DNA of 64,000 bases from Variovorax sp. RA8 (GTDB lineage Bacteria > Pseudomonadota > Gammaproteobacteria > Burkholderiales > Burkholderiaceae_C), in contig NZ_LR594662.1 of NCBI RefSeq assembly GCF_901827175.1, positions 5,766,001-5,830,000 on the forward strand. Direction: 5' to 3'. A program made the position numbers and the translations under genes. Under the pieces are notes generated by a model. The model was given only the letters and a program-made list of their open reading frames with translations. It searched no databases and was not told where the DNA came from. Shown one piece after another: positions 7,023-33,427 of the stretch. How positions within the stretch are numbered: the stretch's first letter is position 1; each line of letters opens with the position of its first letter.

Positions 7023-7529
7023 CTAGCGGACAAGGTGCACGCGCAGCGCCCCGAGCTGCGCATACAGCTGCTGCACCGCCTTCTCGTCCAGCCCCGCGAA
7101 GAGCTCCAGCAGCCATTCCTCGTGCGCCTTGGCCATGGCCTCGAAGCTGCGGCGGCCCTTGGGCGTCAGGCTCACGATCCAGGCTCGGCGGTCTTCCGGG
7201 CTGGGCGAGCGCTGGACCACGCCCTCGCGTTCGAGCTCGTCGGTCAGGCCGGTGACGTTGCCGCCGGTCACCATCAGGTAGCGCGACAGCACGCGCATCT
7301 TGAGGCCCTCGCGGTAGCGGTAGAGCTGCGCCATGTAGTCGAAGCGCGCGAGCGAGATGTCGAAGTTCTCGCGCAGCCGCTTGCGGATCTCGGCCTCGAT
7401 CTGCGTGGTGCTGGCCAGCATGCGCAGCCACAGCTTGAGGACCGCGTGGTCGCCGGTGCCGGCACGCGCCTCGTGCCCCAGCTCCTGCGCGTCGCTCAGG
7501 AGCGCATGCGAAGCGTCGTTCTGCTTCAT
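7023..7529 (-). CDS. MarR family transcriptional regulator (distal flank of catabolic island)
   Basis: A 168-residue winged-helix regulator. The wHTH runs from about residue 65 (FDYMAQLYRYREGLKMRVLS) through the recognition region GGNVTGLTDELEREGVVQR to the wing SPEDRRAWIVSLTPKGR, a typical MarR pattern (DRR...LT.KG). The ATG at 7529 overlaps the stop of the upstream SDR gene by 4 nt, so it is the last gene of the 13-gene transport/dioxygenase operon. MarR proteins of this type usually repress neighbouring catabolic genes and release DNA on binding an aromatic acid. The palindrome at 20595-20610 is its obvious candidate target; together with the MarR at 32939 it may control the whole island. 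Confidence 0.93.
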   Translation of the reverse strand: MKQNDASHALLSDAQELGHEARAGTGDHAVLKLWLRMLASTTQIEAEIRKRLRENFDISLARFDYMAQLYRYREGLKMRVLSRYLMVTGGNVTGLTDELEREGVVQRSPSPEDRRAWIVSLTPKGRRSFEAMAKAHEEWLLELFAGLDEKAVQQLYAQLGALRVHLVR

Positions 7530-8302
7530 GTGACCTCGCCGCCCGAGACCGAGATCGACTGGCCATTGACCGACACGGCGCCATCGCCGCAGAGCCAACG
7601 CACCGCATCCGCCACCTCGGCCGGCTGCACGATGCGTCGCTGCGGGTTGACCGCCGCGAACTCCGCCATTGCCTCGGCCTCGCTGCGCCCTGTCTTGCCG
7701 ACCACGTTGCTGACGCTGTCGCGCAGGATGTCGGTGTCGGTATAGCCGGGGCAGACGGCATTCACCGTCACGCCCTTGCGCGCCACCTCCAGCGCGAGCG
7801 AGCGCGTGAGCCCGATCACGCCGTGCTTGGCCGCCGTGTAGGCGCTGACATAGGCATAGCCCTTCTGCCCCGCCGTGCTCGCGATGTTGACGATGCGGCC
7901 CCAGCCCGCTTCGAGCATGCCCGGCAGCGCCGCCTGGGCGCAGAGGAAGCTGCCCGTCAGGTTGACGCTCAACATCCGCTGCCACAGCGCGACGGAGGTC
8001 TTCAGGAAAGGCGCGCTCTCGGCCGCGCCGGCGTTGTTGACGAGGATCGCGACCGGCCCGCGCTCGGCGCGCGCCTGCGCGAAGGCCGCTGCCACGGCCT
8101 CCGGGTCGGCCACGTCGGCGGTCACCACGCCATGGCCCGTGCCGGGCAGCGAGCCGGCCACGCGCAGCAGTGCGGCGCGGTCCCGCCCGAGCAGGGTCAG
8201 CACCGCACCCTCGGCCGCCAGGGTGCGCGCGATCTCGGCGCCGATGCCGCGCGCCGCGCCGGTCACGAGCGCGTGGCGGCCAGTCATTGAATGTGCTTGC
8301 AT
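7526..8302 (-). CDS. SDR family NAD(P)-dependent oxidoreductase
   Basis: Classical short-chain dehydrogenase with the cofactor motif TGAARGIG near residues 14-21, NNAG, the catalytic Ser in NIASTAGQKG, and YTAAK as the YxxxK pair; the C-terminal NGQSISVSGGEVT is typical. The ATG at 8302 (MQAHSMTGRHALVTG) gives 258 residues. An inner ATG at 8287 is also possible, and neither has a strong ribosome-binding site. It overlaps the MarR gene by 4 nt. The sequence resembles 3-hydroxybutyrate-dehydrogenase/FabG-like enzymes, so oxidation or reduction of a 3-hydroxyacyl intermediate is plausible; the actual substrate is unknown. Confidence 0.9.
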   Translation of the reverse strand: MQAHSMTGRHALVTGAARGIGAEIARTLAAEGAVLTLLGRDRAALLRVAGSLPGTGHGVVTADVADPEAVAAAFAQARAERGPVAILVNNAGAAESAPFLKTSVALWQRMLSVNLTGSFLCAQAALPGMLEAGWGRIVNIASTAGQKGYAYVSAYTAAKHGVIGLTRSLALEVARKGVTVNAVCPGYTDTDILRDSVSNVVGKTGRSEAEAMAEFAAVNPQRRIVQPAEVADAVRWLCGDGAVSVNGQSISVSGGEVT

Positions 8303-8357
8303 ACCTGAATTGTCCAGTTCTGAATCTTTATAGGGATCGGCGATGACAGGCGCCTGC

Positions 8358-9125
8358 TCAGCGCATGCGGCATCCACCGTTGAGGTCCAGCGTGGCGCCG
8401 GTCACGAAGGCCGCGGCCGGCGAGGCCAGGTAGACCACCGCCGCGGCCACCTCCTCCGGCTCGCCGAAGCGCCCGACCGGGATGCCGGCGACCAGCGTTC
8501 GCTGCCGCGCCTCATCCATCGCCTCGAGCATCGGGCTGCGCACCGCGGCCGGCGCCAGCGCGTTCACCGTCACCCCGTGCGGCGCGAGTTCTCGGGCAAA
8601 AGCGCGGGTCAGCGCGATCACGCCCGCCTTCGAGGCCGCGTAGTGCACGCCGGTGGCCGCGCTGGCCTGCTGCCCGGCGATCGAGCCGAGGTTGACGATG
8701 CGGCCCGCCCCGCGCTCGCGCATGTGGCGCCCGGCGATCCGGCAGCCGAAGAAGCTGCCGCGCAGATTGACGGCCAGCACCTCATCCCATTCCTCGGCGC
8801 CGATGTCCCACAGTGAGGTGGACGGCGTGCGGGCGGCGTTGTTGACCATCACGTCGACCCCGCCGAAGCGCTGCACGGCCGCGTCGAAGCACAGCTGGAA
8901 TGTGGCCTCGTCGCGCACGTCGAGCGGCATGGCAATGGCCTCGTGGCCCGCGTCGCGCAGGCCGGCCGCCACGGCCCCGACCGCCCGCTCGTCGATGTCG
9001 GTCAGCATCACGCGTGCGCCGGCCTCGGCCACCCCGCGCGCGATGGCCGCGCCAAGCCCTTGCCCCGCTCCGGTCACGAAGGCCGAGCGTCCGGCCAGCG
9101 AGAACAGCGCGGCAGGCGTCGGCAT
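8358..9125 (-). CDS. SDR family NAD(P)-dependent oxidoreductase
   Basis: A 255-residue classical SDR: cofactor motif TGAGQGLG at residues 18-25, DVRDEA, VNNAA, catalytic Ser in VNLGSIAGQQ, and YAASK as the YxxxK pair, ending TGATLDLNGGCRMR. It lies 3 bp after the AMP-dependent ligase gene and 55 bp before the next SDR, so it is part of the same transcript. The two adjacent SDRs are not close copies of each other, suggesting successive steps on different intermediates. Substrate not predictable from sequence alone. Confidence 0.92.
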   Translation of the reverse strand: MPTPAALFSLAGRSAFVTGAGQGLGAAIARGVAEAGARVMLTDIDERAVGAVAAGLRDAGHEAIAMPLDVRDEATFQLCFDAAVQRFGGVDVMVNNAARTPSTSLWDIGAEEWDEVLAVNLRGSFFGCRIAGRHMRERGAGRIVNLGSIAGQQASAATGVHYAASKAGVIALTRAFARELAPHGVTVNALAPAAVRSPMLEAMDEARQRTLVAGIPVGRFGEPEEVAAAVVYLASPAAAFVTGATLDLNGGCRMR

Positions 9126-9128
9126 GCC

Positions 9129-10719
9129 TCAGCCCCTGGCCGGCGTCCGACCGCCGGGCCCGCGGTCCCAGGTGACGGCCGTCACGCCGCGCTCGCGCAG
9201 CTTGTATTTCTGTACCTTGCCGTTCTCGGTGCGCGGCAGGTCAGGCAGCAGGTCGACGTAGCGCGGCAGCGCGAAGTACGGCAGCCGGGTCTCGCAGAAG
9301 GCAAGCAGCTCGGCCGGGTCGAGGCGCTGGCCCTCTCGCGCCACCAGTGCGGCCATCACCTCGTCCTCGGCCAGTTCGGAGCGCACCGGATAGACCGCAC
9401 AGGCGGCGACGCCGGGATGGCTCAGCAGCACCTGCTCGACCTCGAAGGAAGAGATGTTCTCCCCGCGCCGGCGTATCGCATCCTTGATGCGATCGACGAA
9501 GCGAAAGGCCCCATCCGCCTCGCGCACCACACGGTCGCCTGTGTGAAACCAGAGGTTGCGCCAGGCTTCGACCGTCTTCTCCGGCATGTTGAAGTAGCCG
9601 CTCGCGAAGGCATGGGGTTCGTCGGCGCGCAGCAGCAGTTCGCCGGCCTCGCCATCCGGCAGCGCGACATCGTCTTCATTCGCCACGCGCGCCTGGAAGC
9701 CGGGACGCAGCCAGCCCATCACGCCGCCTCGCGGCGAATCGGGCGCGGTGGCGATGGCGAAGTTGGTCTCGGTGGAGCCATAGCCCTCCAGCAGCCGCAC
9801 GCCGGTGCGTTCCAGGAAGGCCCGGCCCGCGGATTCCGGCACGCCGGGCCCCAGCCCGACGCGCACGCGGTGGTCGCGCTCGCCCGACCCTTCGGGCTGC
9901 GCCAGCAGGATGGGCACCATCGCACCCAGCAGGTAGACGACCGTCGCGCCCGAGGCCCGCATCGACGGCCAGAAGCCGGACGCCGAGAAGCGCGGCTCGA
10001 AGACGACTTCGCAACCCGTGATCGCCGCCTGCGCAAAGGTGTTGAGCGCATTGATGTGGAACAACGGCAACGTGGTGCACAGTACGTCCTCGGCGCCCAC
10101 GCCAAGCACATCCGCGCTGTTGACGCCCCACCAGTAGTACTGCGCATGCGGGCACACCACGCCCTTGGCCGGCCCGGTGGTGCCGGACGTGTAGAGGATG
10201 GCCAGGGGATCGCCCGGTTGCATCGCAGCCGGGGGGAGGCCCTCGAGCGCCGCAGGATAGGAAAGCGTGCGCACGTCCGGTGTTGCATCACCGGCGTGCA
10301 CATCCAGCACCCAGATCTCGCGCAGCGAGGTGCGCGCCAGATCCGCGGCCAGCAGGCGCTCGACGAAGGCCGCTTCGATGACCAGCAGCTTCGCCTCGCT
10401 GTTCTGCAGGAAGTACTCGATCTGCGGCCCCATCGAGGCCGTGTTGATCGGCACCATCGCCGCACCCAGCCAGCCGCAGCCTAGAAAGACTTCCAGAAAC
10501 TCGATGCGGTTGCCACTCATCACCGCCACGCGGTCGCCGCGCTGCACGCCGGCTTGCGCCAGCGCCGCGGCACGCCCGCCCGCAGCCCGCTGCGCGTCCG
10601 CGTGCGTCCATGAGCGGCCCGCAATGCGCAGCAGCGGCCGCTCCTCGAAGCGCGCCGCCTGGCGCTCGAGCATCGCAGGCAGCGTGCGTTGCGCCGGCGG
10701 CAGCGGACTGGCAGGGCGC

Positions 10720-10730
<11 letters not shown>
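9129..10730 (-). CDS. AMP-dependent acyl-CoA synthetase/ligase
   Basis: ANL-superfamily adenylating enzyme, 533 residues from the ATG at 10730. P-loop-like motif [10 protein letters not shown] at residues 181-190, the aromatic/acid-site [12 protein letters not shown], the hinge region with [21 protein letters not shown] and [14 protein letters not shown], and the C-terminal lysine segment [16 protein letters not shown]. It activates a carboxylic acid with ATP and CoA. The first 11 nt overlap the end of livF, so it is coupled to the transporter and probably activates the imported acid or a ring-cleavage product. A second ligase of the same family is encoded at 24672-26294. Confidence 0.92.
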
Positions 10731-11451
<721 letters not shown>

Positions 11452-11514
11452 TGGAAGGCCTTCTCGTGGCTCGTCACTTGGGGTTGTATTGCTTCCGCTC
11501 TCTGCGGTCGTGCT

Positions 11515-11544
11515 CCCTCTGCCTCTGCCTCTGCCTCTGCCTCA
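11515..11544. repeat. Hexamer simple repeat (GCCTCT)n
   Basis: About four to five tandem GCCTCT units (last ones degenerating to GCCTCA/GCTTCT) just upstream of livF, outside the inverted arms of the larger element. Non-coding. Confidence 0.85.
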
Positions 11545-11570
11545 GCTTCTGGGCTGAGGTGAGGGCACTG

Positions 11571-12305
<735 letters not shown>

Positions 12306-12307
12306 CC

Positions 12308-14155
12308 TCATACCACGCTCCCCAGATAAGCCGCCTGCACCCGCTCGTCCGCCCGCACCGCCGAAGGCACACCCTCCACCAGCTTGGACCCGAAGTTCAT
12401 CACCACCAGCCGATCCACCAGCTTCATCACGAAATCCATGTCGTGTTCGACGATCAGGATGGTCACGCCCTCCTCGCGCAGCTTGCGCAGCAGGTCGCCC
12501 AGCGCCATCTTCTCCTTGCGCCGCAGCCCCGCGGCCGGCTCGTCGAGCACGAGCAGCACCGGGTCCGCCGCGAGCGCGCGGGCGATCTCCAGGATGCGCT
12601 GCGTGCCCAGCGGCAGGCTGCCCGCGAGCTCGTGCGCGCGCTCGCCCAGGCCGATGCGGTCCAGCTGGCGCTGCGCCTCCTGCAGGATCTGGCGCTCCTC
12701 GGCGCGGTCCAACCGCAGGCCCGCCTTGAGCACGCCCGAACTCGTGCGGGCATACGCACCCAGCGCGACGTTGTCCAGCAGCGTCATGTGCGGGCGCAGC
12801 TTGACGTGCTGGAAGGTGCGCGCCAGCCCCAGCCGCGCCACCTTGCGCTGCGGCATGCCGCCGATGTCGTGGCCGAGGAAGCGCACCTGCCCGGCCGTCA
12901 TCGGCGCGGTGCAGGTCAGCAGGTTGAACATGGTCGACTTGCCCGCGCCGTTGGGCCCGATCAGGCCCATGATCTCGCCGGCCTTCACCTCGAAGCTCAC
13001 GTCGTTGACCGCCACCAGCCCGCCGAAGCGCTTGACAGCCCCCGTGACCGAGAGGATCGGCGAACCGCGCTCGGGCAGCGTGCGATGCGGCAACGGCTCG
13101 ACCGCCGCCAAGGGCTCGCGCGGCGCTTGCGCACGCGCACGCTTGTGGGTCCAGCGCCGCACGAAGCCCATCAGCCCGCCGCGCGCAAAGTGCAGCAGCA
13201 GGATGAAGAGCGTCGCGAAGGCCACGGCCTCCAGTTGCCCGGCACGCTGCGTCAAAAGCGGCAGCACGTCCTGCAGCCCGTTCTTGAGGATCAGCACCAG
13301 CGCCGAGCCGACCAGCGCGCCGGCCAGGTGCCCGAGCCCGCCGGCCACCGCCATCAGCAGGTACTCGATGCTGGCGCGCACGTCGAAGGGCGAGGGGCTC
13401 ACGAAGCGGTTCATGTGCGCATAGAGCCAGCCCGCGAGGCCGGCGAACAGCGCGGCCGTCACGAACAGCGTGAGCCGCACGCGGTAGGCATCGGCCCCCA
13501 CGCTGGCCAGCAGGATGGCGCCGCCGCGCAGGCTGCGGATCGCGCGGCCCGGCCGGGACTGCAGCAGGTTGTGGCTGAACAGCATGGCCAGGCCGACCAA
13601 CGCCCAGATCAGGTAGTAGATGGCGCGCGGATCGGCCAGCGACCAGGTGCCGATGCTGAGGGCCGGGATGTTCGACAGGCCCGTGTGGCGCCCCAGCGCA
13701 TCGACATTGCCGAACAGCATCGCGATCGACAGGCCCCAGGCGATGGTCGACAGCGGCAGGAAGTGCCCGCCCAGCCGGAGCGTGAGCATGCCGATGGCCA
13801 GCGCCGAGAGCCCGGTCAGGCCCAGCGCGAACACCAGCCCCAGCCACGGCGACAGGCCCTGCGCGGTGCTGAGCCAGGCCGTCGCGTAGGCGGCGATGCC
13901 GACGAAGGCCGCCTGCCCGAAGGAAGTCGCCCCGCCGATGCCGGTCAGCAGCACCAGCCCCAGCGCCACCAGCGCACCGATGCCGATGTCGTTGAGCAGC
14001 GAGACCGTGAAGTTGCCGGCGAGCAGCGGCACCAGCGCCAGCACCACGACGGCGAGGCCGATCCACAGCAGGCGCCTGGGGAGGCGCTTCGTCGATGCGC
14101 CTGCCGGCGTGCTGCTCACGGAGACGGCGCCTTCGGTCGTTTGCGCTGTGCTCAT
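12308..14155 (-). CDS. livM-livG: Fused LivM permease - LivG ATPase of Liv-type ABC importer
   Basis: A 615-residue natural fusion. Residues ~25-330 form the LivM permease: about nine membrane segments with the conserved LLTGIGGATSFGQAAFVGIAAY and the EAA-like cytoplasmic loop. A basic/proline linker (~335-370) follows, then the LivG ATPase with Walker A GPNGAGKST, LARTFQHVKL, signature LPLGTQRILEIARAL, Walker B LLVLDEPAAGL and EHDMDFVMKLVDR. Separate genes are usual, but this fusion recurs in proteobacterial aromatic-acid importers. It overlaps livH by 4 nt (ATGA). It carries an imported substrate across the inner membrane together with LivH and LivF. Confidence 0.94.
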   Translation of the reverse strand: MSTAQTTEGAVSVSSTPAGASTKRLPRRLLWIGLAVVVLALVPLLAGNFTVSLLNDIGIGALVALGLVLLTGIGGATSFGQAAFVGIAAYATAWLSTAQGLSPWLGLVFALGLTGLSALAIGMLTLRLGGHFLPLSTIAWGLSIAMLFGNVDALGRHTGLSNIPALSIGTWSLADPRAIYYLIWALVGLAMLFSHNLLQSRPGRAIRSLRGGAILLASVGADAYRVRLTLFVTAALFAGLAGWLYAHMNRFVSPSPFDVRASIEYLLMAVAGGLGHLAGALVGSALVLILKNGLQDVLPLLTQRAGQLEAVAFATLFILLLHFARGGLMGFVRRWTHKRARAQAPREPLAAVEPLPHRTLPERGSPILSVTGAVKRFGGLVAVNDVSFEVKAGEIMGLIGPNGAGKSTMFNLLTCTAPMTAGQVRFLGHDIGGMPQRKVARLGLARTFQHVKLRPHMTLLDNVALGAYARTSSGVLKAGLRLDRAEERQILQEAQRQLDRIGLGERAHELAGSLPLGTQRILEIARALAADPVLLVLDEPAAGLRRKEKMALGDLLRKLREEGVTILIVEHDMDFVMKLVDRLVVMNFGSKLVEGVPSAVRADERVQAAYLGSVV

Positions 14156-15207
14156 TGGTCCACCTCCTCTTCTTCCTCTTCCGCATGCACGCTCATGAAG
14201 GAGCGCAGCATCAGCACCGGGATCAGCAGGCTGAAGACGATCACGTCCTTCAGCGCGCCGCTCCAGAAGGAGGCGAAGCTCTCGACCACGCCCACCGCCA
14301 GCGCGCCGATGGCGGTCATCGGGTAGCTCACCAGGCCGCCGATGATCGCCGCCACGAAGGCCTTGAGCCCGATGATGAAGCCCGAGTCGTAGTACATGGT
14401 GGTGACCGGCGCGATCAGCACGCCGATCAGGCCGGCCAGCAGCGAGGCGCAGCCATAGGCCAGCAGCGCCGTGCGCGCCGGCCGGATGCCGATCAGACGC
14501 GCACCCACGCGGTTGACTGCCGTGGCGCGCAGCGCCTTGCCGGCGATCGTGCGCTCGAACACCAGGAAGAACAGGCCGCTGAGCACGACCGCCGATGCCA
14601 CCATCAGGATCACCTGCCCGCTGACCGTGAAGCCGTCGCCCAGCGGGAGCGAGCCGCTGGCCAGGGGCTGCGTGCGCGAGCCCTCGGGCCCGAAGAACAG
14701 CAGGCCCAGGCCCGACAGCAGGAAGTGCAGCGCCAGCGAGACGATCAGCAGCACCAGCACCGAGGCATCGGCGATCGGCTGGAACACCACGCGCGAAAGA
14801 AGCGGCGCGATCGGCACCACCAGCAGCACCGCCGAGGCGATGTGCAGCGGCGCCGGCACGCCCGGCCGGCTCGCCAGCCAGGCCAGCAGGCAGGGGACGA
14901 GCGGCAACACGCCCCAGCCCAGCAGGGCCTTGGGGATGCGGGCGCTTTCGCCGCGCCGCACCAGGCTGCCGATCTCGGTCGCAAGCGCGAGCGCGGTCAG
15001 CACCAGCACCAGGCCGATGGTGGGCGGCACGCGCCCGGTTTCGAAAGCGGCCAGCGACAGCGCGGCAAAGGCCGCGACATCGCCGAAGGGCACGAAGACC
15101 ACGCGCGTGACCGAGAAGATCAGCACCAGCCCCAGCCCGGCCAGGAGATAAACGGCGCCGTTCGCCAGGCCATCGATGCCCAGGATCAGTGCCACGTCGG
15201 GTGTCAT
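14152..15207 (-). CDS. livH: Liv-type ABC transporter permease (LivH)
   Basis: Inner-membrane permease of 351 residues, about 50 longer than E. coli LivH, with N-terminal GLANGAVYLLAGLGLVLIFSVTRVVFVPFGD and the conserved C-terminal region ALRATAVNRVGARLIGI...VAAIIGGLVSYPMTAIGALAVG. Extra hydrophobic sequence (residues ~75-135) accounts for the extra length. The C-terminus is a short acidic tail with six consecutive Glu. It lies 40 bp after a substrate-binding protein gene and overlaps livM-livG by 4 nt. Confidence 0.93.
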   Translation of the reverse strand: MTPDVALILGIDGLANGAVYLLAGLGLVLIFSVTRVVFVPFGDVAAFAALSLAAFETGRVPPTIGLVLVLTALALATEIGSLVRRGESARIPKALLGWGVLPLVPCLLAWLASRPGVPAPLHIASAVLLVVPIAPLLSRVVFQPIADASVLVLLIVSLALHFLLSGLGLLFFGPEGSRTQPLASGSLPLGDGFTVSGQVILMVASAVVLSGLFFLVFERTIAGKALRATAVNRVGARLIGIRPARTALLAYGCASLLAGLIGVLIAPVTTMYYDSGFIIGLKAFVAAIIGGLVSYPMTAIGALAVGVVESFASFWSGALKDVIVFSLLIPVLMLRSFMSVHAEEEEEEVDQ

Positions 15208-19389: not shown

Positions 19390-19391
19390 GT

Positions 19392-20610: not shown

Positions 20611-20639
20611 ATACTAGCGAGACGACAGTGCAATGACAA
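20611..20639 (-). promoter_or_regulatory. Sigma70 promoter of the transport/dioxygenase operon
   Basis: TTGTCA (20634-20639, 5/6 to consensus) and TAGTAT (20611-20616, 4/6) are separated by exactly 17 nt on the minus strand, and the operator palindrome follows at once. It would drive about 13 genes from 20549 down to the MarR gene ending at 7023, unless the repeat at 11.6-12.3 kb interrupts the message. Confidence 0.7.
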
Positions 20640-24675: not shown

Positions 24676-26294
24676 GCCTGCCTCTTCTTCATCGCACGGG
24701 TGTCGATGCAATGCGGCTGGCCGGGCAGCGCCTGGGCCAGCTCGCGCAGTTGCCCGCGCTGGATCTTCTGCGAGGCGGTGAGCGGCAATGCATCGACGAA
24801 GGCGACATAGCCCGGCGCCTTGTAGTAGGCCAACTGCGCCAGCGCATGCTCGACGATGCTGCCGGCGATTCGGGCGCGCTCCGAGGCATCCACGCCATCG
24901 CGCACCACGATGCAAGCCAGCACCTCGTCGCCGCGCACCGGGTCAGGCGTGGCGGCCACGGCAGAACTCTTGACGGCCGGGTGCTGGTTCAGCACGCTCT
25001 CGACCTCTACCGCGGAGATGTTCTCGCCGCTTCGGCGGATCACGTTCTTCTTGCGATCGACGAAGAAGAAGTTGCCTTCGGCATCGCGCCGCACCAGGTC
25101 GCCGGTATGGAACCAGCCGCCGGCCCAGGCTTCGCGCGTGGCCTCCTCGTCCTTCAGGTAGCCGGAGAAGAAGTAGCGGCGCGGGTCGGTGCCTGCGGAG
25201 CGCACCAGCAGCTCGCCAGGCGTGTCGGCGGGCACGTCGCGGCCTTCGTCGTCCAGCAGCCGGACCTCGACGTAGTCCTGCTGGCGGCCGAAGCAGCTCG
25301 TGCCCACCTGGCGCGGCTCGCGGTTGGCCATGATGCAGGCGCCGGCACCGGTCTCGGTCATCGCCCAGGCCTCGACCAGAGGGAAGCCGAAGCGGGCCTC
25401 GAAAGGCGCGTGGTTCTTGCGGTCCACGCCGGCGCCGAAGCCCCAGCGGATCGCATGGTCCTTGTCGGCCGGCGAATCGGGCGCGGCCAGCAGCATCGCC
25501 GGCATCACGCCCAGGTAATGCACGATGGTGGCGCGGCTCTCTCGCGCGCTCGCGAGCCAGGTCTTCGGATGGAAGCGGTCCAGCTGCACCAGGCAGCCGC
25601 CGGCCACCAGCACCACCATCGTGGAGAAGGCCATCGCGTTCATGTGGTTGAGCGGCAGCGGCGTGATCACGCGCTCGGCATCGGGACGGATGGCGCACAC
25701 GCCGTCGAGGGCCGCGTACCACTCGCCCGCGCGCAGGAAGTACGCGTTGCTCAGGATGCAGCCCTTGGGCCGGCCGGTGGTCCCGGAGGTGTAGAGCAGC
25801 GCGCATTCGGTGTCGAGGCCAATCGCTTCGTGAGGGCGCGGCGGCGCCGTGGCAGCAGGCGGGACCACGTCGTCCGGTCCCATGGTCTCGAAGGCGATGC
25901 CGGCCAGTGCCGCCGCGGCACGCAGATCGGCCACGCGCTCCGGCAAGGTCACGGCCAGGCCGATCTCGCTGTGGCCGATCAGATAGACGAGCTCGGCCGA
26001 ACGCATCTCGGCATTGATGGGCACCACGCTCACGCCCAGCGCGTTCAGGGCGAACCAGTGCAGCAGGAAGGCAGGCCGGTTCTCCAGCAGCAGTCCCACG
26101 CGGTGGCCGTGGCCGTAACCCGCAGCCTGGTAGGCCAGGCGCAGGCGCTCGACCTCGGCGGCAGCCTCGCCCCAGCGGATGGCGCCCGGTGCGATGCCGT
26201 AGGCCGCGGCGGTCACCGATTCGGTAAACAGGAACTCCGCATCCGGCGTGCGCGCCGCGGTGGCTGCGAAGCATTGGTAGACCGACGTGTGCAT
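24672..26294 (-). CDS. AMP-dependent acyl-CoA synthetase/ligase
   Basis: Adenylate-forming ligase of 540 residues with TSGTTGRPKG at 169-178, the motif VEAWAMTETGAGA, GWFHTGDLVRRDAEGNFFFVDRKKNVIRRSGENISAVEVE and the C-terminal SQKIQRGQLR with the catalytic Lys. It activates a carboxylate with ATP and CoA. It is coupled to the thiolase by a 4-nt overlap and lies 7 bp after the dioxygenase beta subunit. It is related to but clearly distinct from the ligase at 9129-10730, implying two different acids are activated in the pathway. Confidence 0.92.
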   Translation of the reverse strand: MHTSVYQCFAATAARTPDAEFLFTESVTAAAYGIAPGAIRWGEAAAEVERLRLAYQAAGYGHGHRVGLLLENRPAFLLHWFALNALGVSVVPINAEMRSAELVYLIGHSEIGLAVTLPERVADLRAAAALAGIAFETMGPDDVVPPAATAPPRPHEAIGLDTECALLYTSGTTGRPKGCILSNAYFLRAGEWYAALDGVCAIRPDAERVITPLPLNHMNAMAFSTMVVLVAGGCLVQLDRFHPKTWLASARESRATIVHYLGVMPAMLLAAPDSPADKDHAIRWGFGAGVDRKNHAPFEARFGFPLVEAWAMTETGAGACIMANREPRQVGTSCFGRQQDYVEVRLLDDEGRDVPADTPGELLVRSAGTDPRRYFFSGYLKDEEATREAWAGGWFHTGDLVRRDAEGNFFFVDRKKNVIRRSGENISAVEVESVLNQHPAVKSSAVAATPDPVRGDEVLACIVVRDGVDASERARIAGSIVEHALAQLAYYKAPGYVAFVDALPLTASQKIQRGQLRELAQALPGQPHCIDTRAMKKRQA

Positions 26295-26301: not shown

Positions 26302-26781
26302 CTAGATGAAAAGCTGCACCGCAGGCAGTGCCGCGTCGCAGTTGAGCAGGTTCACGCGCTTGAGCGTCATGCGCAGTTGGCCATCCACCTGCGTCAGGTG
26401 GTGGAAGAAGGTGCCGACATAGAACTGCAGCTCGTCGCCTTGCGATTCGGTGTAGTGGAACTCCGTGCGCACCACGAAGGCATTGCCCGCCTCGTCGAAC
26501 AGCTCGACCGTGGGCATCTGCAGCAGGTGATGGCAGCGGCTCGGCGGCTGCTGCGAGAAGGCGCGCGGGCTCTTCAGGCGCTCGATGCGCAGGTCGCGCA
26601 GGAGCTTGTCCTCGTACAGATGCGAGCAGTGGTTGAGCCCGTCCTCCTGGTCCGGCGTCGCCGGCACCCAGTAGTAGGCGTCGTCGGCGAAGAGCGCATT
26701 CCATTCCTCGTAGCGCTTGGCATCGAGCTGGCGGCACTCGTGCACGACGAAGTCGATCAGGTCCTGGTGCAAGACGGCCAT
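26302..26781 (-). CDS. Aromatic-ring-hydroxylating dioxygenase, small (beta) subunit 2
   Basis: A 159-residue NTF2-like beta subunit with the helix VVHECRQLDAKRYEEWNALFADDAYYWVP, central IERLKSPRAFSQQPPSR and terminal KRVNLLNCDAALPAVQLFI. Start at 26781 shares one nucleotide with the alpha-subunit stop (TAATG), a tight translational coupling. Paralogous to the beta subunit at 16441-16905. Confidence 0.93.
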   Translation of the reverse strand: MAVLHQDLIDFVVHECRQLDAKRYEEWNALFADDAYYWVPATPDQEDGLNHCSHLYEDKLLRDLRIERLKSPRAFSQQPPSRCHHLLQMPTVELFDEAGNAFVVRTEFHYTESQGDELQFYVGTFFHHLTQVDGQLRMTLKRVNLLNCDAALPAVQLFI

Positions 26782-28094
26782 TACATCGTCTCCGTCATGT
26801 AGCGCGCCCAAGACCGATACTGGTTGCGCATCGGCAGCTCGTTGGTGCCGCCGGTGGTGATCTCGCCGCCCTTGAGCTCCTCGGGATCGTAGTTGCGGTG
26901 CAGGCTGACCCACTCGTTGCCGGTCGCGTGCAGACCCGCCTGCATGCCCCGATAGGCCTGCAGGTCGTCGTGGCCGACCACCGAGAAGGGCGAGTTGATG
27001 AGCCGGTTGTACATGGCAGTGCGCTGCAGCAGCTCGGGCGGCGCGCCCTTCAGGCGGAAGGTCCAGCTCTCGATCAGGGTCTTGTCGGCCGCGATCGGCT
27101 TGACCACGCGAATCGCCTGGATCGCGCCCTTGATCGTGAGGTTGGGGTAGTACACCGTGTTGTGGCGCGCCATGCCGAGGATCTGCGCGGTGCGCTCCTC
27201 ACCGTACTTCGCCTTCATCGCGTCGTCGTATTCGGGGATCGCCTTGTACTTGCTGTGGATGCTGAAGTGCACGCCGGTGAAGCTGTGGCCGTTGTCGTAG
27301 GTCCGGATGCCCATGTCCTCGAAGAACTTGTAGTCCGACATGAAGGGCACGAACTGCTCGATGGCCATGGGCTTGGGCTCGTCGGCCGGCTTGTCGGCCC
27401 ACATGCGCTTGGCGGTGCCGGCCGAGGACTCGTGCGCCACCATCGGATGCATGGTGTCGTTGAGGTTCTCGACGAACATCTTCCAGTTGCACTGGTGCAT
27501 GAAGCGCAGGCAGCCGCCGGCGATCTCCAGCTCGCCTTCGGGCGAGCGGTCGGCCATGTTGTCGATGGAGCTCAGCGAGTCGCCGAAATATTCCTCGAAG
27601 TCCGGGCCGACGTCGTTGATCTTGACGAAGATGAAGCCGCGGTGGCTGCGCACGTTGCGGATGGAGGTCAGTCCCTTGGCCGACTCGCATTCGTGCAGCT
27701 GGGTGCCCTCGTAGCCGTTCTTCAGCGGAATGGCCAGCAGCGCGCCGTCGGTCTTGAAAGTCCAGGCGTGATAGGGACAGCGGAAGAACTTGCCGGTGTT
27801 GCCGCAGGGCGCGTTCACCAGCCGCGAACCCTTGTGGGCGCAGCGGTTCATCATCGCGCGCAGCGAGCCGTCGGTGTGGCGCACCACGATCAGCGGGCGG
27901 CCGGCGATCTCGTTGCTGATGTAGTCGCCCGGCCTGGGCAGCTGGCTCTCGTGGCCGACGTAGTTCCAGGTGTTGGCAAAGAAGTGCTCCTGCTCCAGCT
28001 CGAACAGCTCCTGGCTGACGTAGAGGTCGCGGTGCACCCGGTCGTTCTGCACCAATGCACGAACCGCGTCGGGATTGCCTCGGTAGGACGTCAT
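26781..28094 (-). CDS. Aromatic-ring-hydroxylating dioxygenase, large (alpha) subunit 2
   Basis: A 437-residue Rieske oxygenase alpha subunit. Rieske ligands Cys85, His87 (RCAHKGS), Cys106 and His109 (CPYHAW) occupy the same positions as in the paralogue at 16902-18218. The iron site is NDTMHPMVAHES with the two His ligands. N-terminal sequences of the two alphas are nearly superimposable (RALVQ-DRVHRDLY), so they are paralogues within one subfamily, probably acting on related substrates or successive intermediates. The reductase gene lies 14 bp upstream, so this pair is the one directly associated with an electron-transfer partner. Confidence 0.95.
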   Translation of the reverse strand: MTSYRGNPDAVRALVQNDRVHRDLYVSQELFELEQEHFFANTWNYVGHESQLPRPGDYISNEIAGRPLIVVRHTDGSLRAMMNRCAHKGSRLVNAPCGNTGKFFRCPYHAWTFKTDGALLAIPLKNGYEGTQLHECESAKGLTSIRNVRSHRGFIFVKINDVGPDFEEYFGDSLSSIDNMADRSPEGELEIAGGCLRFMHQCNWKMFVENLNDTMHPMVAHESSAGTAKRMWADKPADEPKPMAIEQFVPFMSDYKFFEDMGIRTYDNGHSFTGVHFSIHSKYKAIPEYDDAMKAKYGEERTAQILGMARHNTVYYPNLTIKGAIQAIRVVKPIAADKTLIESWTFRLKGAPPELLQRTAMYNRLINSPFSVVGHDDLQAYRGMQAGLHATGNEWVSLHRNYDPEELKGGEITTGGTNELPMRNQYRSWARYMTETM

Positions 28095-28108: not shown

Positions 28109-29092
28109 TCAGATGTCCAGCACCAGCCGCGGGCCCTTGGCGCGCGAGATGCAGATCTGCATGACGTTGCCTTCTGCCTTCTCGCGTGCACTCAGCACAT
28201 AGTCGCGATGGTCGATCTCGCCTTCAAGCACCGGCGTCGCGCACACGCCGCATTCGCCGCGCTTGCAGTCGTACAGCGGGTCGCAGCCATGCTCGATCAG
28301 GCAGTCAAGGATGCTCTGATCCGCGGGCACCGTAAAGCGCTGTCCCGACTGCGCGAGCTCCACCTCGATGGGCTGGTCGCCTGCCTCGGCGACCGGCGTG
28401 GTGAAGAGCTCGAAGTGCACGCGGTCGTGTTCCCAGCCGCGCGCCTGGGTGCGGGCCAGCACGGCGTCGAGCATGACCTTGGGGCCGCAGACGTAGAGCC
28501 GGTCCCCGGCGGGCACGTCGTCGAGCACCGCATCGATGTCCAGCGGGCCTCCGGCGTCGGCGTCGGCGTGCACGCGCAGGTCCCCGCCCAGCAGCGCGTG
28601 CAGTTCGGGCAGGAAGGCCATCAGCTCGCGGCTGCGGCCGGCATAGTGCAGGCGGACGGGTGCGCCCTCGGCGCGCCGGCGCGCGGCCATGCTGGCCAGC
28701 GGGGTGATGCCGATGCCGCCCGCAATCAGCACCGTGCCGCCCGGACCGGTATGCAGCGGGAAGTCGTTCTTCGGCGGCTCGATGGTGATCAGGTCTCCCT
28801 GCTTCAGGCGCTCGTGCATGAAGCGCGACCCACCGCGGCCCTCGTCCTCCTTGCGCACGGCGATCACGTAGCGGGTGGGCGCGTTGGTCGCATTGCGCTC
28901 GATCGCGAAGTTGATCAGCGAGTAGTGGCGCCAGTCCTTCGCACCATCGGGCAGTTCAACCTGCACGCGGACATGGGCGCCGGCGCTGTAGCCCGGCAGC
29001 GCATGGTTGTCGTCGGCGCGCAGCACGAACATGCGGATCAGCGGGTTCAGCTCGCAGGCCTCGGCGACGCGCAGTTGAAGTGTGTGGGTCAT
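28109..29092 (-). CDS. Oxygenase reductase: FNR-type flavin/NAD domains with C-terminal plant-type [2Fe-2S] ferredoxin
   Basis: A 327-residue phthalate-dioxygenase-reductase-like protein. The N-terminal flavin domain (RHYSLIN motif), then the NAD domain starting at about residue 115 with IAGGIGITPLASMA, and YVCGP. The C-terminal ferredoxin domain has ligands Cys276, Cys281, Cys284 and Cys314 (CKRGECGVC...C). It moves electrons from NAD(P)H through flavin to a Rieske centre; as the only such reductase in the island it probably serves both dioxygenases. It lies between iorB (22 bp) and dioxygenase alpha 2 (14 bp). Confidence 0.94.
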   Translation of the reverse strand: MTHTLQLRVAEACELNPLIRMFVLRADDNHALPGYSAGAHVRVQVELPDGAKDWRHYSLINFAIERNATNAPTRYVIAVRKEDEGRGGSRFMHERLKQGDLITIEPPKNDFPLHTGPGGTVLIAGGIGITPLASMAARRRAEGAPVRLHYAGRSRELMAFLPELHALLGGDLRVHADADAGGPLDIDAVLDDVPAGDRLYVCGPKVMLDAVLARTQARGWEHDRVHFELFTTPVAEAGDQPIEVELAQSGQRFTVPADQSILDCLIEHGCDPLYDCKRGECGVCATPVLEGEIDHRDYVLSAREKAEGNVMQICISRAKGPRLVLDI

Positions 29093-29114: not shown

Positions 29115-30614
29115 TCAAGCCAGCGCGTGCCGTGACAGCGCCGCATGCAGCTGGTGGCCCTGTTCATCGGCCAGCGCCGCATCGCGCAGCTCGCGCAGCG
29201 TGGCGGGCGCCATGCGGGTGCCTGCGCGCTGGAAGGCGGCCATCAGCGTGTCGTAGTTGCGCAGGCCGCGTTCGTGCGTGTCGCTGTAGCCCTTGACCAG
29301 GCGCTGGCACTGGGCGAGCTCGATCGCCAGCTCGGGATGCTGCACGGCCGTGCCGGCGACGCGCTGCAACCATTCCTCGATGCGGCGGTTCTCCTCGGCA
29401 TAGCGCAGGGTGCTGCGGCGCCAGCGTTTCATGGCGGCGACGGCGGAGAGCATCAGGTAGCCGTGCAGCGAGCTGGTACGGATCACGCGGCCCTTGCGGG
29501 TCATGCGCTCCACCAGGCGGCGCGGCCAGCCCGAGCCCATCAGCCACCTGCCGAGGCCACTGGGCAGGGTCTCGCAGATCTCCTGCAGCCGGGGATGCAT
29601 GTACTCGTTAATCGCGAGCAATTGCCCTTCCTGCACGCCCGCCTCGCCGCGCACGCGATCGAAGCGCGAGGCGCGGGTCTTGAGCGCCGCGACGCGGGCC
29701 GTGTCCTCGTAGGACATCCACAGCGCCAGGTGGCGGGCAGTCTCGCGCTGCAGGCGATGGTCCTCGCCCGCCGGGAGTGCGGCGATCGTGGCCATGCGGT
29801 CGAGGTAGAGGCCTGCGTAGTCCGGGTCCTGGTAGTCGATCAGGCGCCGCACGCCTTCGAAGAGGACGGGGTGCAGCGTCGGCGCGAAGTCGCGCTGGAC
29901 GCGTTCGACCAGGGCGCGCACCGCGGGGTGGCTGGGCTGCGGCGCGGCAGCGGAGGCCGGCACCGGCTTCTCGTCCTCGCCCGCGCCCTGGGCCCGCGCG
30001 AAGCCAACGCTGAAGGCCTTCAGGCTGGGCTTCACGCCCACGCCGCCACGCTCGACGGTGGCCTCGAACTGGGCGCGGCTGAAAGGCAGCACGCCGGAGC
30101 CGGCCAGCGCGCCGAAGAGCACGGCGCTGATGACGCTGCCCGAAGCCTCGGCGGCCTGCGCCATGTCGAAGCGGATGAAGCGCTTGGCGGCCTGGTCGGC
30201 GTGCGACAGCAGCTCGGCGCTGTCGACCCGCCCGTCGCCCATGGCGCTCTTCTCGGCAATGGAGTACACGCGATGGGTGGAGGCGATCAGCGTGCTGCGG
30301 TCCTTGGTCACCAGCCCGCGCTGCACGGCGCGGCCGGCTTCCATCAGCTCCGAGGCGAGCACCACGTCGACGTCGCCCGGCAGCGGCATCAGCGCCAGCA
30401 CCGGCCGGCCGCCATCGGCCTGGGCCTGCGCCTCGGGATAGAGCTCGACGTAGTAGATGGTCGCGCCGGTGCGCTGGGCCACGCCGGGCACCGAGGTGGT
30501 CTGCGCGACGTATCCGTTGGCCTCGCCCATGTCGACGATCCAGTCGGCCAGCACGCCGCCGCCCTCGCCGCCCATGGCGAGGATCGCGATCTTGATAGGT
30601 TGTGTCTTGCTCAT
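29115..30614 (-). CDS. iorB: Indolepyruvate oxidoreductase beta subunit, long form with DUF6537-like C-terminus
   Basis: A 499-residue IorB-type protein. Residues 1-~200 form the gamma/beta-like 2-oxoacid oxidoreductase domain beginning KIAILAMGGEGGGVLADWI, which binds CoA or substrate; the C-terminal ~260 residues are an added helical domain found in long IorB proteins. Start is 3 nt after the iorA stop, so the two subunits are made together. IorAB oxidatively decarboxylates arylpyruvates such as indole-3-pyruvate to the acyl-CoA with ferredoxin. In this island it may feed indole-3-acetyl-CoA or act on a related 2-oxo acid. Confidence 0.9.
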   Translation of the reverse strand: MSKTQPIKIAILAMGGEGGGVLADWIVDMGEANGYVAQTTSVPGVAQRTGATIYYVELYPEAQAQADGGRPVLALMPLPGDVDVVLASELMEAGRAVQRGLVTKDRSTLIASTHRVYSIAEKSAMGDGRVDSAELLSHADQAAKRFIRFDMAQAAEASGSVISAVLFGALAGSGVLPFSRAQFEATVERGGVGVKPSLKAFSVGFARAQGAGEDEKPVPASAAAPQPSHPAVRALVERVQRDFAPTLHPVLFEGVRRLIDYQDPDYAGLYLDRMATIAALPAGEDHRLQRETARHLALWMSYEDTARVAALKTRASRFDRVRGEAGVQEGQLLAINEYMHPRLQEICETLPSGLGRWLMGSGWPRRLVERMTRKGRVIRTSSLHGYLMLSAVAAMKRWRRSTLRYAEENRRIEEWLQRVAGTAVQHPELAIELAQCQRLVKGYSDTHERGLRNYDTLMAAFQRAGTRMAPATLRELRDAALADEQGHQLHAALSRHALA

Positions 30615-30617: not shown

Positions 30618-32801
30618 TCAGAACGCGTAGGCAGCGCGGCGCCTGGCCTCGCCGCGCTGCAGCCATCCGATCACGCCGGCGCGCACACGCTCGCGGAACC
30701 GGTCCCAGCCCGTCGGATTGCTCACGATCTGCGCCTTGTAGAAGGACGGGCAGAGCACGGCGGCATGCGAGACGTCGCCGCAGTTGCCGCAGCCCACGCA
30801 GCTGTCGAGCACGGTGGCAACGGGATCGGTGCGCAGCGGATCGGGATTCGCCTTGATCGAGAGCGAGGGGCAGCCCGAGAGGCGGATGCAGGAATGGTCA
30901 CCGGTGCAGGTGTCCTCGTCGACCCCGAACTTGTCGCGCACCATGCGCTTGCCTTCGGCGATGGCCTTGCGCACCAGCGGCTTCTCGCGGCGCTGCTTGT
31001 TGAGCATGCACTCCGATTGCGCGATCAGGACCTTGGGGCCCTTCTGCTTCGTCGTCAGCGCTTCCTTGATCACGTCGCGCATACCGGCAACGTCGTAGGT
31101 GCGGCGCATCGTGCGCACCCATTCCACGCCCACGCCGCGGACGGCGCGCTCGATCGCGTGGCCGGTGCTGCGCGTCGCGTTATGTGCCTTCGAAGAGAGG
31201 ATGTCCTGGCCGCCGGTGGCCGAGGTGTAGTTGTTGTCGACCACGATGGTCAGGTTGTCGCTCCGGTTGAAGACGGCGTTGGCCACGCCGCTGGTCAGCC
31301 CGTTGTGCCAGAACCCGCCGTCGCCCATCATCGAGATCGCGCGCTTGCCTGCAGGCGCGTTCAGCGCGGCGGCGCCGGCGCCGCCCAGGCCGTAGCCCAT
31401 CGTCGTGTTGCCGATGTTGAAGGGCGGCAGGATGGAGAACAGGTGGCAGCCGATGTCGGCGCTCACGTGGTGCGGGCCGAGCTCGCGCTCCACCAGCTTC
31501 ATCGCGCTGAAGATCGGCCGCTCCGGGCAGCCGGTGCAGAAGCCCGGCGGGCGGGCGTGGACGCTGTGGCCCAGCGGCAGGGCCGGCTCGGGCGCGCCAT
31601 CGACGCCGATCTCGGCCACTTCCCTGAGCGGGATCACCTTGCGCACCGGCGCCGGGACCGGCAGGGGCTGCAGCCGGCCATAGCGCTCGCCGAAGGTGCG
31701 TGCGCCTTTGAGCAGCTCGGCCGCCGTGTATTCGCCCGCGACCGGCAGCATGTCCTTGCCGTGCAGTGCGGTGGTGGAGCCGGCCTGGCGCAGGATGGTG
31801 GCGAGGTTCTGCTCGACGAAGTTGGGCTGCCCCTCCTCCACCACCAGCACCGCGCGCTTGCCTTCGCAGAAGCGCAGCACTTCGTTGTCGACCAGCGGGT
31901 AGGCCACATTCATCACGTAGAGCGGCACCTGCGTGTTGCCGTAGACATCGGCCAGGCCCAGCCGTTCGAGGGCGCGCAGCAGGGTGTTGTAGCTGCCGCC
32001 CTGGACGATGATGCCGATGTCGTCGGCGTCTTCCGAGAAGAACTCGTTGAGTTTGTGCTCCTCGATGAAGCGCAGCGCGGCGGGCCAGCGCTCCGTCACC
32101 TTCTCCTGCTCATGCACGAAGCTGGCCGGCGGCAGCACGATGCGGCTGACGTCGCGCTGCGGGTTCTCCAGTGCGTCCTTCAGCGTGAAGGTGGGCCGGC
32201 GATTGGCACCCGCCACGAAGTGCCCGTGCACGTGGCAGGCACGGATGCGCAGCTGCAGCATCACCGGCGTGTGGCTGGCTTCGGACAGCTCGAAGCCTTT
32301 CTTCACCGCCTCGACGATGGAGGGCAGGTTGGGGCGCGGATCGAGCAGCCAGATCTGCGACTTCATCGCGAAGGCGTGGCTGCGCTCCTGCATGATCGAG
32401 GAGCCTTCGCCGTAGTCCTCGCCCACGATGATCAAGGCGCCACCGGTCACGCCGCCCGATGCCAGGTTCGCCAGCGCGTCGGAAGCCACGTTGGTGCCCA
32501 CCGTCGCCTTGAAGGTGACGGCGCCGCGCAGCGGATAGTTGACCGAGGCAGCCAGCGTGGCGGCGGCCGTGGCCTCGCTCGCGCTGTTCTCGAAGCGGAT
32601 GCCCTGCTCGGCCAGGATGTCCTGGGCGTCGGCCAGCACATCCATGAGGTGCGAGATGGGCGCGCCCTGGTAGCCGGCCACATAGGAAACACCCGATTCG
32701 AGCAGGGCCTTGGTGACTGCCAGAATGCCTTCACCCCGGAACACTTCGCCCTCGGCGAGCCGAAGCTTCTTTACTTCCTCGACGAAAGATCGTTCAGCCA
32801 T
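30618..32801 (-). CDS. iorA: Indolepyruvate ferredoxin oxidoreductase alpha subunit
   Basis: A 727-residue fused 2-oxoacid:ferredoxin oxidoreductase with the pyrimidine-binding domain at the N-terminus and the TPP-binding domain near the middle (MGDGGFWHNGLTSGVANAV...DNNYTSATGG, the GDG-N motif). The C-terminal iron-sulfur region has CTGDHSCIRLSGCPS and CVGCGNCGDVSHAAVLCPSF, consistent with 4Fe-4S clusters. First gene of the upstream half of the island; the 137-bp gap to the divergent MarR gene holds the control region (32853-32875). Usual for the family is ~620 residues, so this is somewhat longer. Confidence 0.92.
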   Translation of the reverse strand: MAERSFVEEVKKLRLAEGEVFRGEGILAVTKALLESGVSYVAGYQGAPISHLMDVLADAQDILAEQGIRFENSASEATAAATLAASVNYPLRGAVTFKATVGTNVASDALANLASGGVTGGALIIVGEDYGEGSSIMQERSHAFAMKSQIWLLDPRPNLPSIVEAVKKGFELSEASHTPVMLQLRIRACHVHGHFVAGANRRPTFTLKDALENPQRDVSRIVLPPASFVHEQEKVTERWPAALRFIEEHKLNEFFSEDADDIGIIVQGGSYNTLLRALERLGLADVYGNTQVPLYVMNVAYPLVDNEVLRFCEGKRAVLVVEEGQPNFVEQNLATILRQAGSTTALHGKDMLPVAGEYTAAELLKGARTFGERYGRLQPLPVPAPVRKVIPLREVAEIGVDGAPEPALPLGHSVHARPPGFCTGCPERPIFSAMKLVERELGPHHVSADIGCHLFSILPPFNIGNTTMGYGLGGAGAAALNAPAGKRAISMMGDGGFWHNGLTSGVANAVFNRSDNLTIVVDNNYTSATGGQDILSSKAHNATRSTGHAIERAVRGVGVEWVRTMRRTYDVAGMRDVIKEALTTKQKGPKVLIAQSECMLNKQRREKPLVRKAIAEGKRMVRDKFGVDEDTCTGDHSCIRLSGCPSLSIKANPDPLRTDPVATVLDSCVGCGNCGDVSHAAVLCPSFYKAQIVSNPTGWDRFRERVRAGVIGWLQRGEARRRAAYAF

Positions 32802-32852
32802 GGTTTGTTTCTTTCCCGTTTCGGCGTGGGAGCCGCTTCATCGCACGGTCTC

Positions 32853-32875
32853 TATAATGTTTACAAGTGAATGTA
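32853..32875. promoter_or_regulatory. Divergent control region between iorA and marR
   Basis: On the plus strand a perfect -10 box TATAAT (32853-32858) precedes the MarR gene, though no good -35 was found. On the minus strand TTGTGG-17 nt-CATTAT could serve iorA. Overlapping both is TGTTTA (32858-32863), identical to a half-site of the 20595-20610 operator, and a TACA-N6-TGTA dyad (32862-32875). A MarR repressor bound here would block both directions. The second half-site is poorly conserved, so this is weaker than the 20.6-kb operator. Confidence 0.45.
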
Positions 32876-32938
32876 TCCACAATCATGAATAACCCTAGAC
32901 ACGCAAGCTGCGTGCCTGCCTGAACCGAGGGACGCAAC

Positions 32939-33427
32939 ATGGCCACTGCCGCCTCCAAGAAGAAGGCCTTGCGCTTCGTCGACGACTACCTTCCCGCATT
33001 GCTCGCGCAGGCCAGCCAGCTGATTTCCTCGGAGTTCCACGTGGTGGCGCGCCAGCACGGCTTCTCGGTGTCGGAGTGGCGGGTGATGGCGTCGCTGGCA
33101 GGCGGCGAGCCCATCAGCATCGGCCAGCTGGCCCAGGTCACGGTGACCAAGCAGCCGACGGTCACCCGCCTGCTGGATCGCATGGAGTCCAAGGGCCAGG
33201 TCGAGCGCCTGCCCCACGACAGTGACCGGCGCGTCACGCTGGTGCGCATCACCCGCAAGGGCGCCAAGACGGTGGAACGGCTGATGGAACTGGCGCTGGA
33301 GCACGAGCGGCGCGTGCTCGAGCCCTTCGGGCTGCTGCGCGCCGAGGAGTTGAAGACGACGCTGCGGCAGATGATCGAGCTGCACGCCCGCGCGCCGGGA
33401 GAGGCAGACGAGGCGGAAGAGGAGTAG
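32939..33427 (+). CDS. MarR family transcriptional regulator (proximal flank of catabolic island)
   Basis: A 162-residue winged-helix regulator: FSVSEWRVMASLAGGEPISIGQLAQVTVTKQPTVTRLLDRMESKGQVERL covers helix-turn-helix and recognition helix, followed by the wing DSDRRVTLVRITRKG. Divergently transcribed from iorA, the arrangement expected of a repressor controlling both itself and the catabolic operon. It is only moderately similar to the MarR gene at 7023-7529, so the two probably have different sites or ligands. It ends 3 bp before the convergent psuG gene. Confidence 0.94.
   Translation: MATAASKKKALRFVDDYLPALLAQASQLISSEFHVVARQHGFSVSEWRVMASLAGGEPISIGQLAQVTVTKQPTVTRLLDRMESKGQVERLPHDSDRRVTLVRITRKGAKTVERLMELALEHERRVLEPFGLLRAEELKTTLRQMIELHARAPGEADEAEEE

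Follow-up and report, generated by a model that had tools for sequence, protein, structure and literature searches.

A second MarR regulator of a Variovorax auxin degradation locus is related to regulators encoded with an aryl-CoA cluster and may share their operator

Results

The iad locus of Variovorax sp. RA8

We analyzed a 64-kb stretch of DNA from Variovorax sp. RA8 (positions 5766001-5830000 of a 7.42-Mb genome; hereafter, the window). The island at 7023-33427 of this window is, judged by its sequence, the published Variovorax iad locus for degradation of the auxin indole-3-acetic acid (IAA). MarR-type regulator genes lie at both of its ends: iadR (32939-33427, plus strand), orthologous to MarR_73 of V. 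paradoxus CL14, and iadR2 (7023-7529, minus strand). The iad locus itself is already known. The new part, which is well supported as a sequence pattern, is an apparent link between IadR2 and a second chromosomal cluster that contains a flavoprotein gene designated ACMR. This name reflects a presumed likeness of the flavoprotein to 2-aminobenzoyl-coenzyme A (CoA) monooxygenase/reductase.

Except for iadR, all genes of the island are located on the minus strand. Starting from iadR, they include iadA (30618-32801; IorA-like, Pfam TPP_enzyme_C, placed as in other iad loci), iadB (29115-30614; IorB-like, Pfam POR and DUF6537), the reductase gene iadC (28109-29092), iadD and iadE for the Rieske oxygenase alpha (26781-28094) and beta (26302-26781) subunits, the CoA ligase gene iadF (24672-26294; Pfam AMP-binding), the thiolase gene iadG (23506-24675; Pfam Thiolase_C_1), iadH (22259-23509), which encodes a DUF35 (ChsH2) domain fused to a short-chain dehydrogenase/reductase (SDR; Pfam OB_ChsH2_C and adh_short), iadI of the cyclase/kynurenine formamidase family (21435-22244; Pfam Cyclase) and the SDR gene iadJ (20684-21415). 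These are followed by iadK2 (19392-20549), encoding an IAA-binding protein, and its paralogue iadK3 (18247-19410). At the far end, iadR2 adjoins an SDR gene, sdr51 (7526-8287), whose order suggests that it is the counterpart of CL14 gene 51; likewise, the equivalence of IadR2 to CL14 MarR_50 rests on position. The initial annotation counted 23 genes in the island, and we found 22 protein genes, both MarR genes included. Its list of gene content and coordinates otherwise holds, with Liv genes, three binding proteins, two Rieske pairs, one reductase, IorAB-like proteins, ligases and SDRs all present.

Five proteins match their own solved structures far above other chains: IadD (937 bits to 7yls_B, obtained with a shorter start), IadE (301 bits to 7yls_A), IadC (638 bits to 7ylr_A), IadK2 (713 bits to 7ylt_B) and IadR (267 bits to 7kfo_A). 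The start of IadD is better set at 28094, which gives 437 aa, the length of 7yls_B. IadK3 reaches 568 bits to 7ylt_B. An alignment revealed that all seven IAA-contact residues of MarR_73 (PubMed Central PMC9613470) are kept in IadR. The Trp and Ser linked with specificity for IAA are retained in IadK2. IadK3 carries the Leu and Val known from the published IadK3, a protein reported to bind oxIAA weakly (PMC10374108). Metal ligands and pocket residues of IadD are invariant in 64 of 64 IadD rows. In CL14, the iadC-K2 region converts IAA to anthranilate and IadR is derepressed by IAA (PMC9613470, PMC12633357); as a possible role of IadI, the initial annotation put forward an isatin-to-isatinate step, and a 2025 preprint suggests that IadI may be a broad-specificity amidase (PMC12633357).

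Gene order agrees as well. In the locus of V. paradoxus NBRC 15149 (L017; L and G numbers denote compared sequence records and same-genus genomes, respectively), iadR and iadA to iadK2 are 83-93% identical and in the same order, and the order iadR, iadA-J, K2, K3, second alpha was seen again in named Variovorax, Pseudacidovorax and Xenophilus loci. Since the identical order recurs in many Variovorax loci, the island is not a chance assembly. The proposal of an auxin degradation locus made in the initial annotation is thus borne out by structure matches, gene order and IadR contact residues; the identities below 40% and different gene order that were named as evidence against it were looked for, and we found high matches and the same order.

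IadD matches occur in 90 of 100 same-genus genomes, 89 of them at 83% identity or more. Two of these matches (G075 and G021) cover only part of the protein, and the search of one incomplete genome (G068) yields only a 59% paralogue. IadD is 96-97% identical in the closest same-genus genomes, and the closest named record is Variovorax sp. WS11 (L001, 97%). The iad locus is an ordinary feature of the genus, and as the genome is itself that of a Variovorax, its presence here is expected. A plasmid origin was considered and rejected, as all plasmid matches to IadD are below 60% identity.

IadR2 belongs to another MarR clade

The two MarR genes that bracket the island, as the initial annotation had described, are indeed present, yet the two proteins are not equivalent. 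IadR2 matches IadR with about 35 bits and is not its close kin. When IadR2 was used to search the 100 same-genus genomes, a second MarR of about 50% identity was also found. Among the MarR matches listed, 71 rows were considered (65 at roughly 50% identity, the other 6 at roughly 75%), and an ACMR gene lies within 450 bp of the MarR gene in 69. The remaining two are a second copy in G035 and a row in G049, whose matches are on different contigs.

In a tree of 40 chosen MarRs, 14 IadR sequences were separated from 26 sequences comprising IadR2 and ACMR-linked MarRs by a 100/100 split; long branches join both sides, and the root is only drawn. The DNA-binding helix, published as residues 70-83 (PMC9613470), is by eye in the tree alignment near-identical in IadR2 and ACMR-linked MarRs and different in IadR.

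According to PMC9613470, MarR_50 does not bind IAA, deletion of MarR_50 raises expression of gene 51, and induction by IAA persists without MarR_73. We considered IadR2 as a second IAA sensor and rejected this possibility, given its different clade and the lack of IAA binding reported in the portions of that paper available. These portions give neither a ligand nor a DNA site for MarR_50. No tie of MarR_50 or IadR2 to aryl-CoA metabolism was found in searches of open-licence PMC papers, and no published regulon for a MarR of the IadR2/ACMR type was found in that literature or in the available part of PMC6449761.

The ACMR cluster and its linkage to iad genes

The ACMR flavoprotein has a length of about 785 aa and is assigned by NCBIfam, well over the cut-off, to bifunctional salicylyl-CoA 5-hydroxylase/oxidoreductase. 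Its likeness to 2-aminobenzoyl-CoA monooxygenase/reductase is supported by the literature (PMC3534580, PMC4539516) and not by sequence comparison. In the genome of the window, the cluster (L127) contains, in this order, genes for ACMR, with hydroxylase and reductase parts, MarR at 10909-11385, enoyl-CoA hydratase, acyl-CoA dehydrogenase, a benzoate-type CoA ligase (358 against a family cut-off of 375) and a RidA-like protein, the hydratase and dehydrogenase being beta-oxidation genes. The same order was found in five other genomes read. ACMR would act after anthranilate, the end product of iad. No anthranilate 1,2-dioxygenase alpha subunit over its cut-off was detected in this genome, which we count in favor of the mechanism proposed below.

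Since 97 of 100 Variovorax genomes carry ACMR, it is a trait of the genus there and not specific to genomes with iad. G067 and G090 have no IadD match at the cut-off, yet sdr51-iadR2 is kept there, followed by a thioesterase gene. In G035, G078 and G091, the iad locus ends with sdr51-thioesterase without iadR2, and an IadR2-like MarR is found inside the ACMR cluster. In other loci the two gene sets adjoin: ACMR, sdr51 and a hydratase gene follow iadJ in a Rhodocyclaceae locus (L066); an acyl-CoA dehydrogenase-hydratase-MarR-ACMR cluster abuts iadR-iadA in L054; and a piece of ACMR, sdr51, iadR2, thioesterase and RidA genes come after the iad genes in L040. Because sdr51-iadR2 is separable and the gene sets adjoin in these three loci, the far end of the Variovorax iad locus, which in several genomes reads sdr51-iadR2-thioesterase, looks like a displaced part of the lower-pathway cluster.

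A predicted operator shared by ACMR and iadK2 promoters

A palindrome close to TTGTTTA-NNN-(C/T)TAAACTATT is present in all 46 ACMR promoters examined, with 10 to 12 of 12 seed positions. These promoters come from one genus, were drawn from the 98 ACMR matches listed and contain 20 distinct 22-mers; the seed was chosen after six ACMR promoters had been read, and six B-type ACMR promoters were left out of training. When a matrix built from ACMR promoters alone was run over both strands of the window, the highest score (32.0) fell at 20592-20613, between iadJ and iadK2, and the next places were 50752 (8.0), the promoter of sdr51 (5.1) and that of iadA (2.7). A symmetrised scan gave 37.4 for the iadK2 promoter, 4.4 for the iadA promoter (32855-32884) and 2.8 for the sdr51 promoter (8308-8329), and 50752 fell to 0.1. 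Positions 20595-20610 of the iadK2 promoter form an almost perfect palindrome of 16 bp.

The sequence GTTTANNNNTAAAC occurs at two places in the 7.42-Mb genome, the ACMR promoter and the iadK2 promoter, and its control had no match. TGTTTANNNCTAAACA was found in 11 of 100 genomes, once in each and always 6.1-6.6 kb from iadD, compared with two matches of its reversed control in the 100 genomes. Its position at iadK2 was observed directly in the window, L001, L002, L010, L015 and L016, and in the others it was deduced from the distance. The predicted iadK2 site is also present in a strain named V. paradoxus ISL-79. L066, the Rhodocyclaceae locus with adjoining gene sets, has a strong site (36.8) some 40 bp ahead of ACMR.

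At sdr51, a score of at least 2 was obtained for 26 of 37 promoters with iadR2, for none of the four without it and for none of 2883 stretches of 210 bp picked at random from the window. The window's 2.8 was already known when the 2-bit cut was chosen. The 37 include 20 extra promoters taken by distance from iadR2 with the presence of sdr51 unchecked, and L173 may cut the site.

The conserved block of the IadR type was detected in 49 of 68 iadR-iadA regions. Its best match in the window is the iadA promoter (32870-32893, minus strand; 47.8, the next being 13.8), and the same model puts the iadK2 promoter 21st in the window. As a separate observation, an ACMR-type site was seen before an alcohol dehydrogenase/hydrolase gene set in L025, L048, L049 and L052.

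Transport, accessory oxygenase and neighboring genes

Between iadK3 and sdr52 lie, all on the minus strand, the second Rieske alpha (16902-18218) and beta (16441-16905) genes, a third binding protein (15248-16408), a LivH-type permease (14152-15207), a predicted LivM-LivG fusion (12308-14155, read from its length and a LivG match at 366-613), a LivF-type ATPase (10720-11451) and a second CoA ligase, lig53 (9129-10673; NCBIfam PRK06155, 842 against a cut-off of 722). The SDR gene sdr52 (8358-9125) follows. The second Rieske alpha is 60% identical to IadD and keeps every metal ligand together with N210, F251, K322, R329 and Y362; Q takes the place of H311 in 39 of 39 rows, and L211 is I or V. 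The enzyme is probably active as an oxygenase, with a compound related to IAA as its substrate.

The gap between livG and livF (11452-12307) is occupied by a repeat, located inside the liv operon, whose two inverted arms are about 220 bp long. Seven near-full-length places (83-100%) were found in the genome, the window's own included. livF and livMG are contiguous in G051 (L100) and separated by a 673-bp gap in G007 (L099). We rejected a hidden gene in this interval: gene calling gave nothing there, the one frame scanned on the minus strand had no Pfam match, and repeat arms are present instead. Beside iadJ, L121 (9284-14019) and also L027, L032 and L056 carry another Liv set with a K2-like binding protein (about 35-38% identity), and the uptake module may have been exchanged.

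Homologues of trpC, trpD, trpG and trpE (651-6689) abut iadR2, and G039, outside the close kin of the window, has a trp-iad neighborhood without iadR2. On the other side, an Indigoidine_A-type (pseudouridine glycosidase-like) gene, psuG, at 33431-34357 separates iadR from an alcohol dehydrogenase gene; of L001-L080, only L001 and L015 were found to have it. The genes at 34427-38166 (alcohol dehydrogenase, hydrolase, 3-hydroxyacyl-CoA dehydrogenase and octopine-dehydrogenase-like) are located beside iadR in many relatives. Further away are type VI secretion genes (54107-57815; ImpA_N, VipA, VipB, Hcp) and pentapeptide-repeat proteins (61683-63982).

Discussion

A possible product-sensing layer in IAA degradation

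In the mechanism we propose, uptake of IAA would be helped by IadK2 and probably by the Liv transporter. IadC-IadDE would oxygenate IAA, and IadJ, F, G, H and I would carry on to anthranilate, with IadR repressing until IAA is bound; the Liv link excepted, these pathway steps and repression by IadR were shown for V. paradoxus CL14 (PMC9613470, PMC12633357) and are assigned to the window by orthology. IadR2 would not watch IAA. It would be a paralogue of the MarR encoded with the chromosomal cluster for the next pathway (ACMR, enoyl-CoA hydratase, acyl-CoA dehydrogenase, aryl-CoA ligase and RidA-like protein), and the two regulators would read a common palindrome, GTTYAG-NN-CTRAAY. Its predicted sites are before sdr51-iadR2 and, in the clade of the window, also before iadK2 and the transporter/second-oxygenase half. 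A metabolite formed after anthranilate, most likely anthraniloyl-CoA, would release both regulators, and successful IAA degradation would thereby boost uptake and the downstream steps at once.

We regard it as fairly probable that IadR2 forms such a product-sensing layer of the iad locus and shares an operator with its ACMR-linked paralogue. In favor of it are the common clade of the two, their near-identical helix, the predicted shared operator and the linkage in L066, L054 and L040. Whether they form a single regulon, in which both sense anthraniloyl-CoA and, through a common operator, exert feed-forward control over uptake from iadK2 onward, over the accessory oxygenase and over the lower pathway that destroys the ring, with the far end of iad as a displaced piece of that pathway, we would put at even chances. 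Anthraniloyl-CoA, or else a close product, would be the likeliest signal for IadR2, with CouR as a precedent.

Several observations weigh against these proposals. In the one-strand scan, an unrelated place (50752-50773, 8.0, near the gene at 50058-50741) outranks the sdr51 and iadA places. The sdr51 site of the window is weak, and 11 of the 37 sdr51 promoters beside iadR2 score below 2. The iadK2 site is best in its locus (score of at least 7.5 and rank 1) in only 25 of 50 loci, where L014 (0.4) and L060 (-0.5) rank first without being counted, L050 and L121, with more than 1500 bp between iadJ and K2, were set aside, and L033 and L113 are one genome; it is missing in several named species, for example V. 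boronicumulans, V. gossypii, V. beijingensis, V. guangxiensis and V. paradoxus NBRC 15149. The ACMR-type match at iadA overlaps the IadR-type block and may be only that block. The iadR-iadA regions of Achromobacter reach 15.4 under the ACMR model; therefore, IadR sites can resemble ACMR-type sites. Furthermore, NCBIfam names ACMR after salicylyl-CoA, the ligase of the cluster is under its family cut-off, and outside Variovorax two of six IadD genomes lack ACMR.

Alternative explanations

The resemblance of MarR operators bears on an alternative in which the iadK2 site is a second IadR operator, IAA alone governs the two halves of the locus and leaves only sdr51 to IadR2. The 99% level of the random stretches is exceeded by 63 of 68 iadR-iadA regions, and in CL14 genes downstream of iadD rise on deletion of MarR_73 (PMC9613470). 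However, the iadK2 promoter ranks low with the IadR-type block model, the DNA-reading helix of IadR is unlike that of IadR2 and the ACMR-linked MarR, and the exact iadK2 core occurs elsewhere in the genome only at the ACMR promoter. We consider this explanation unlikely. A similarly low likelihood is given to the possibility that the ACMR cluster and the MarR family linked to it are dedicated to salicylate, through salicylyl-CoA, and that the link to iad is regulatory cross-talk or chance neighborhood. The NCBIfam assignment agrees with it, as does the occurrence of ACMR in nearly all Variovorax, also without iadD and hence independently of iad. It is countered by the anthranilate that iad produces, by the loci in which ACMR, sdr51 or iadR2 adjoin iad genes, and by co-occurrence in other Burkholderiales (n=249; cut-offs of E 1e-130 or better for IadD and 1e-200 for ACMR). 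IadD was found there in 6 genomes, ACMR in 31 and both in 4, i.e., ACMR in 4 of 6 genomes with IadD compared to 27 of 243 others (one-sided Fisher p 0.0025); two of the six match IadD at 47-50% only, and with IadD of at least 60% ACMR is present in only 2 of 4.

The trpE, trpG, trpD and trpC homologues that adjoin iadR2 in the window raise the question of whether anthranilate from IAA is meant for tryptophan, feeding TrpD. In 11 of 100 genomes the distance from trpE to iadD is about 21 kb or less, but 10 of these, counting the genome of the window, are its close kin by identity, and other genomes with both genes have trpE elsewhere or on another contig. On this basis, recycling into tryptophan, as suggested by adjacency, was rejected as the principal explanation, and we hold it to be very improbable. 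That the island serves aromatic acids in general and not IAA hardly deserves credence: Rieske, SDR, ligase and Liv families are common, as is generally known, but five proteins match solved Iad proteins far above other chains, and gene order and contact residues agree.

Relation to known systems

Compared with the iad locus (HS33) of V. paradoxus CL14 (PMC9613470, PMC10374108, PMC12633357), the locus of the window is alike in gene families, IAA contacts of IadR, the IadK2/IadK3 pair, IadCDE and MarRs at both ends. Features set against the published HS33, with CL14 known from papers only, are iadR2 abutting trpE, the repeat that splits livG and livF, psuG beside iadR and the ACMR-type palindrome at iadK2. 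Loci of the iac type (Pseudomonas putida 1290, from papers) likewise degrade IAA aerobically under a MarR; iac ends in catechol (PMC9613470), whereas the window has the iad gene set. The 2-aminobenzoyl-CoA (anthranilate) pathway of Azoarcus evansii (PMC4539516, PMC3534580) resembles the ACMR cluster of the genome in its ACMR-like flavoprotein, aryl-CoA ligase and beta-oxidation enzymes, a likeness by description; NCBIfam names the enzyme here after salicylyl-CoA. CouR, the MarR repressor of p-hydroxycinnamate catabolism (PMC4737184), provides a precedent for an aryl-CoA thioester, not the free acid, as the signal of a MarR. It is not close to IadR2 (6c28 at 27 bits, behind many other MarRs), and the IadR2 ligand is only inferred.

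iad loci allow root bacteria to disarm the auxin of their neighbors and are being put into commensals (PMC12633357). Now that a 22-bp site, a sister regulator and a few candidate ligands can be named, the question of what IadR2 does is directly testable. If the proposed role is true, complete use of auxin as a food source would also require a second chromosomal cluster outside the iad locus.

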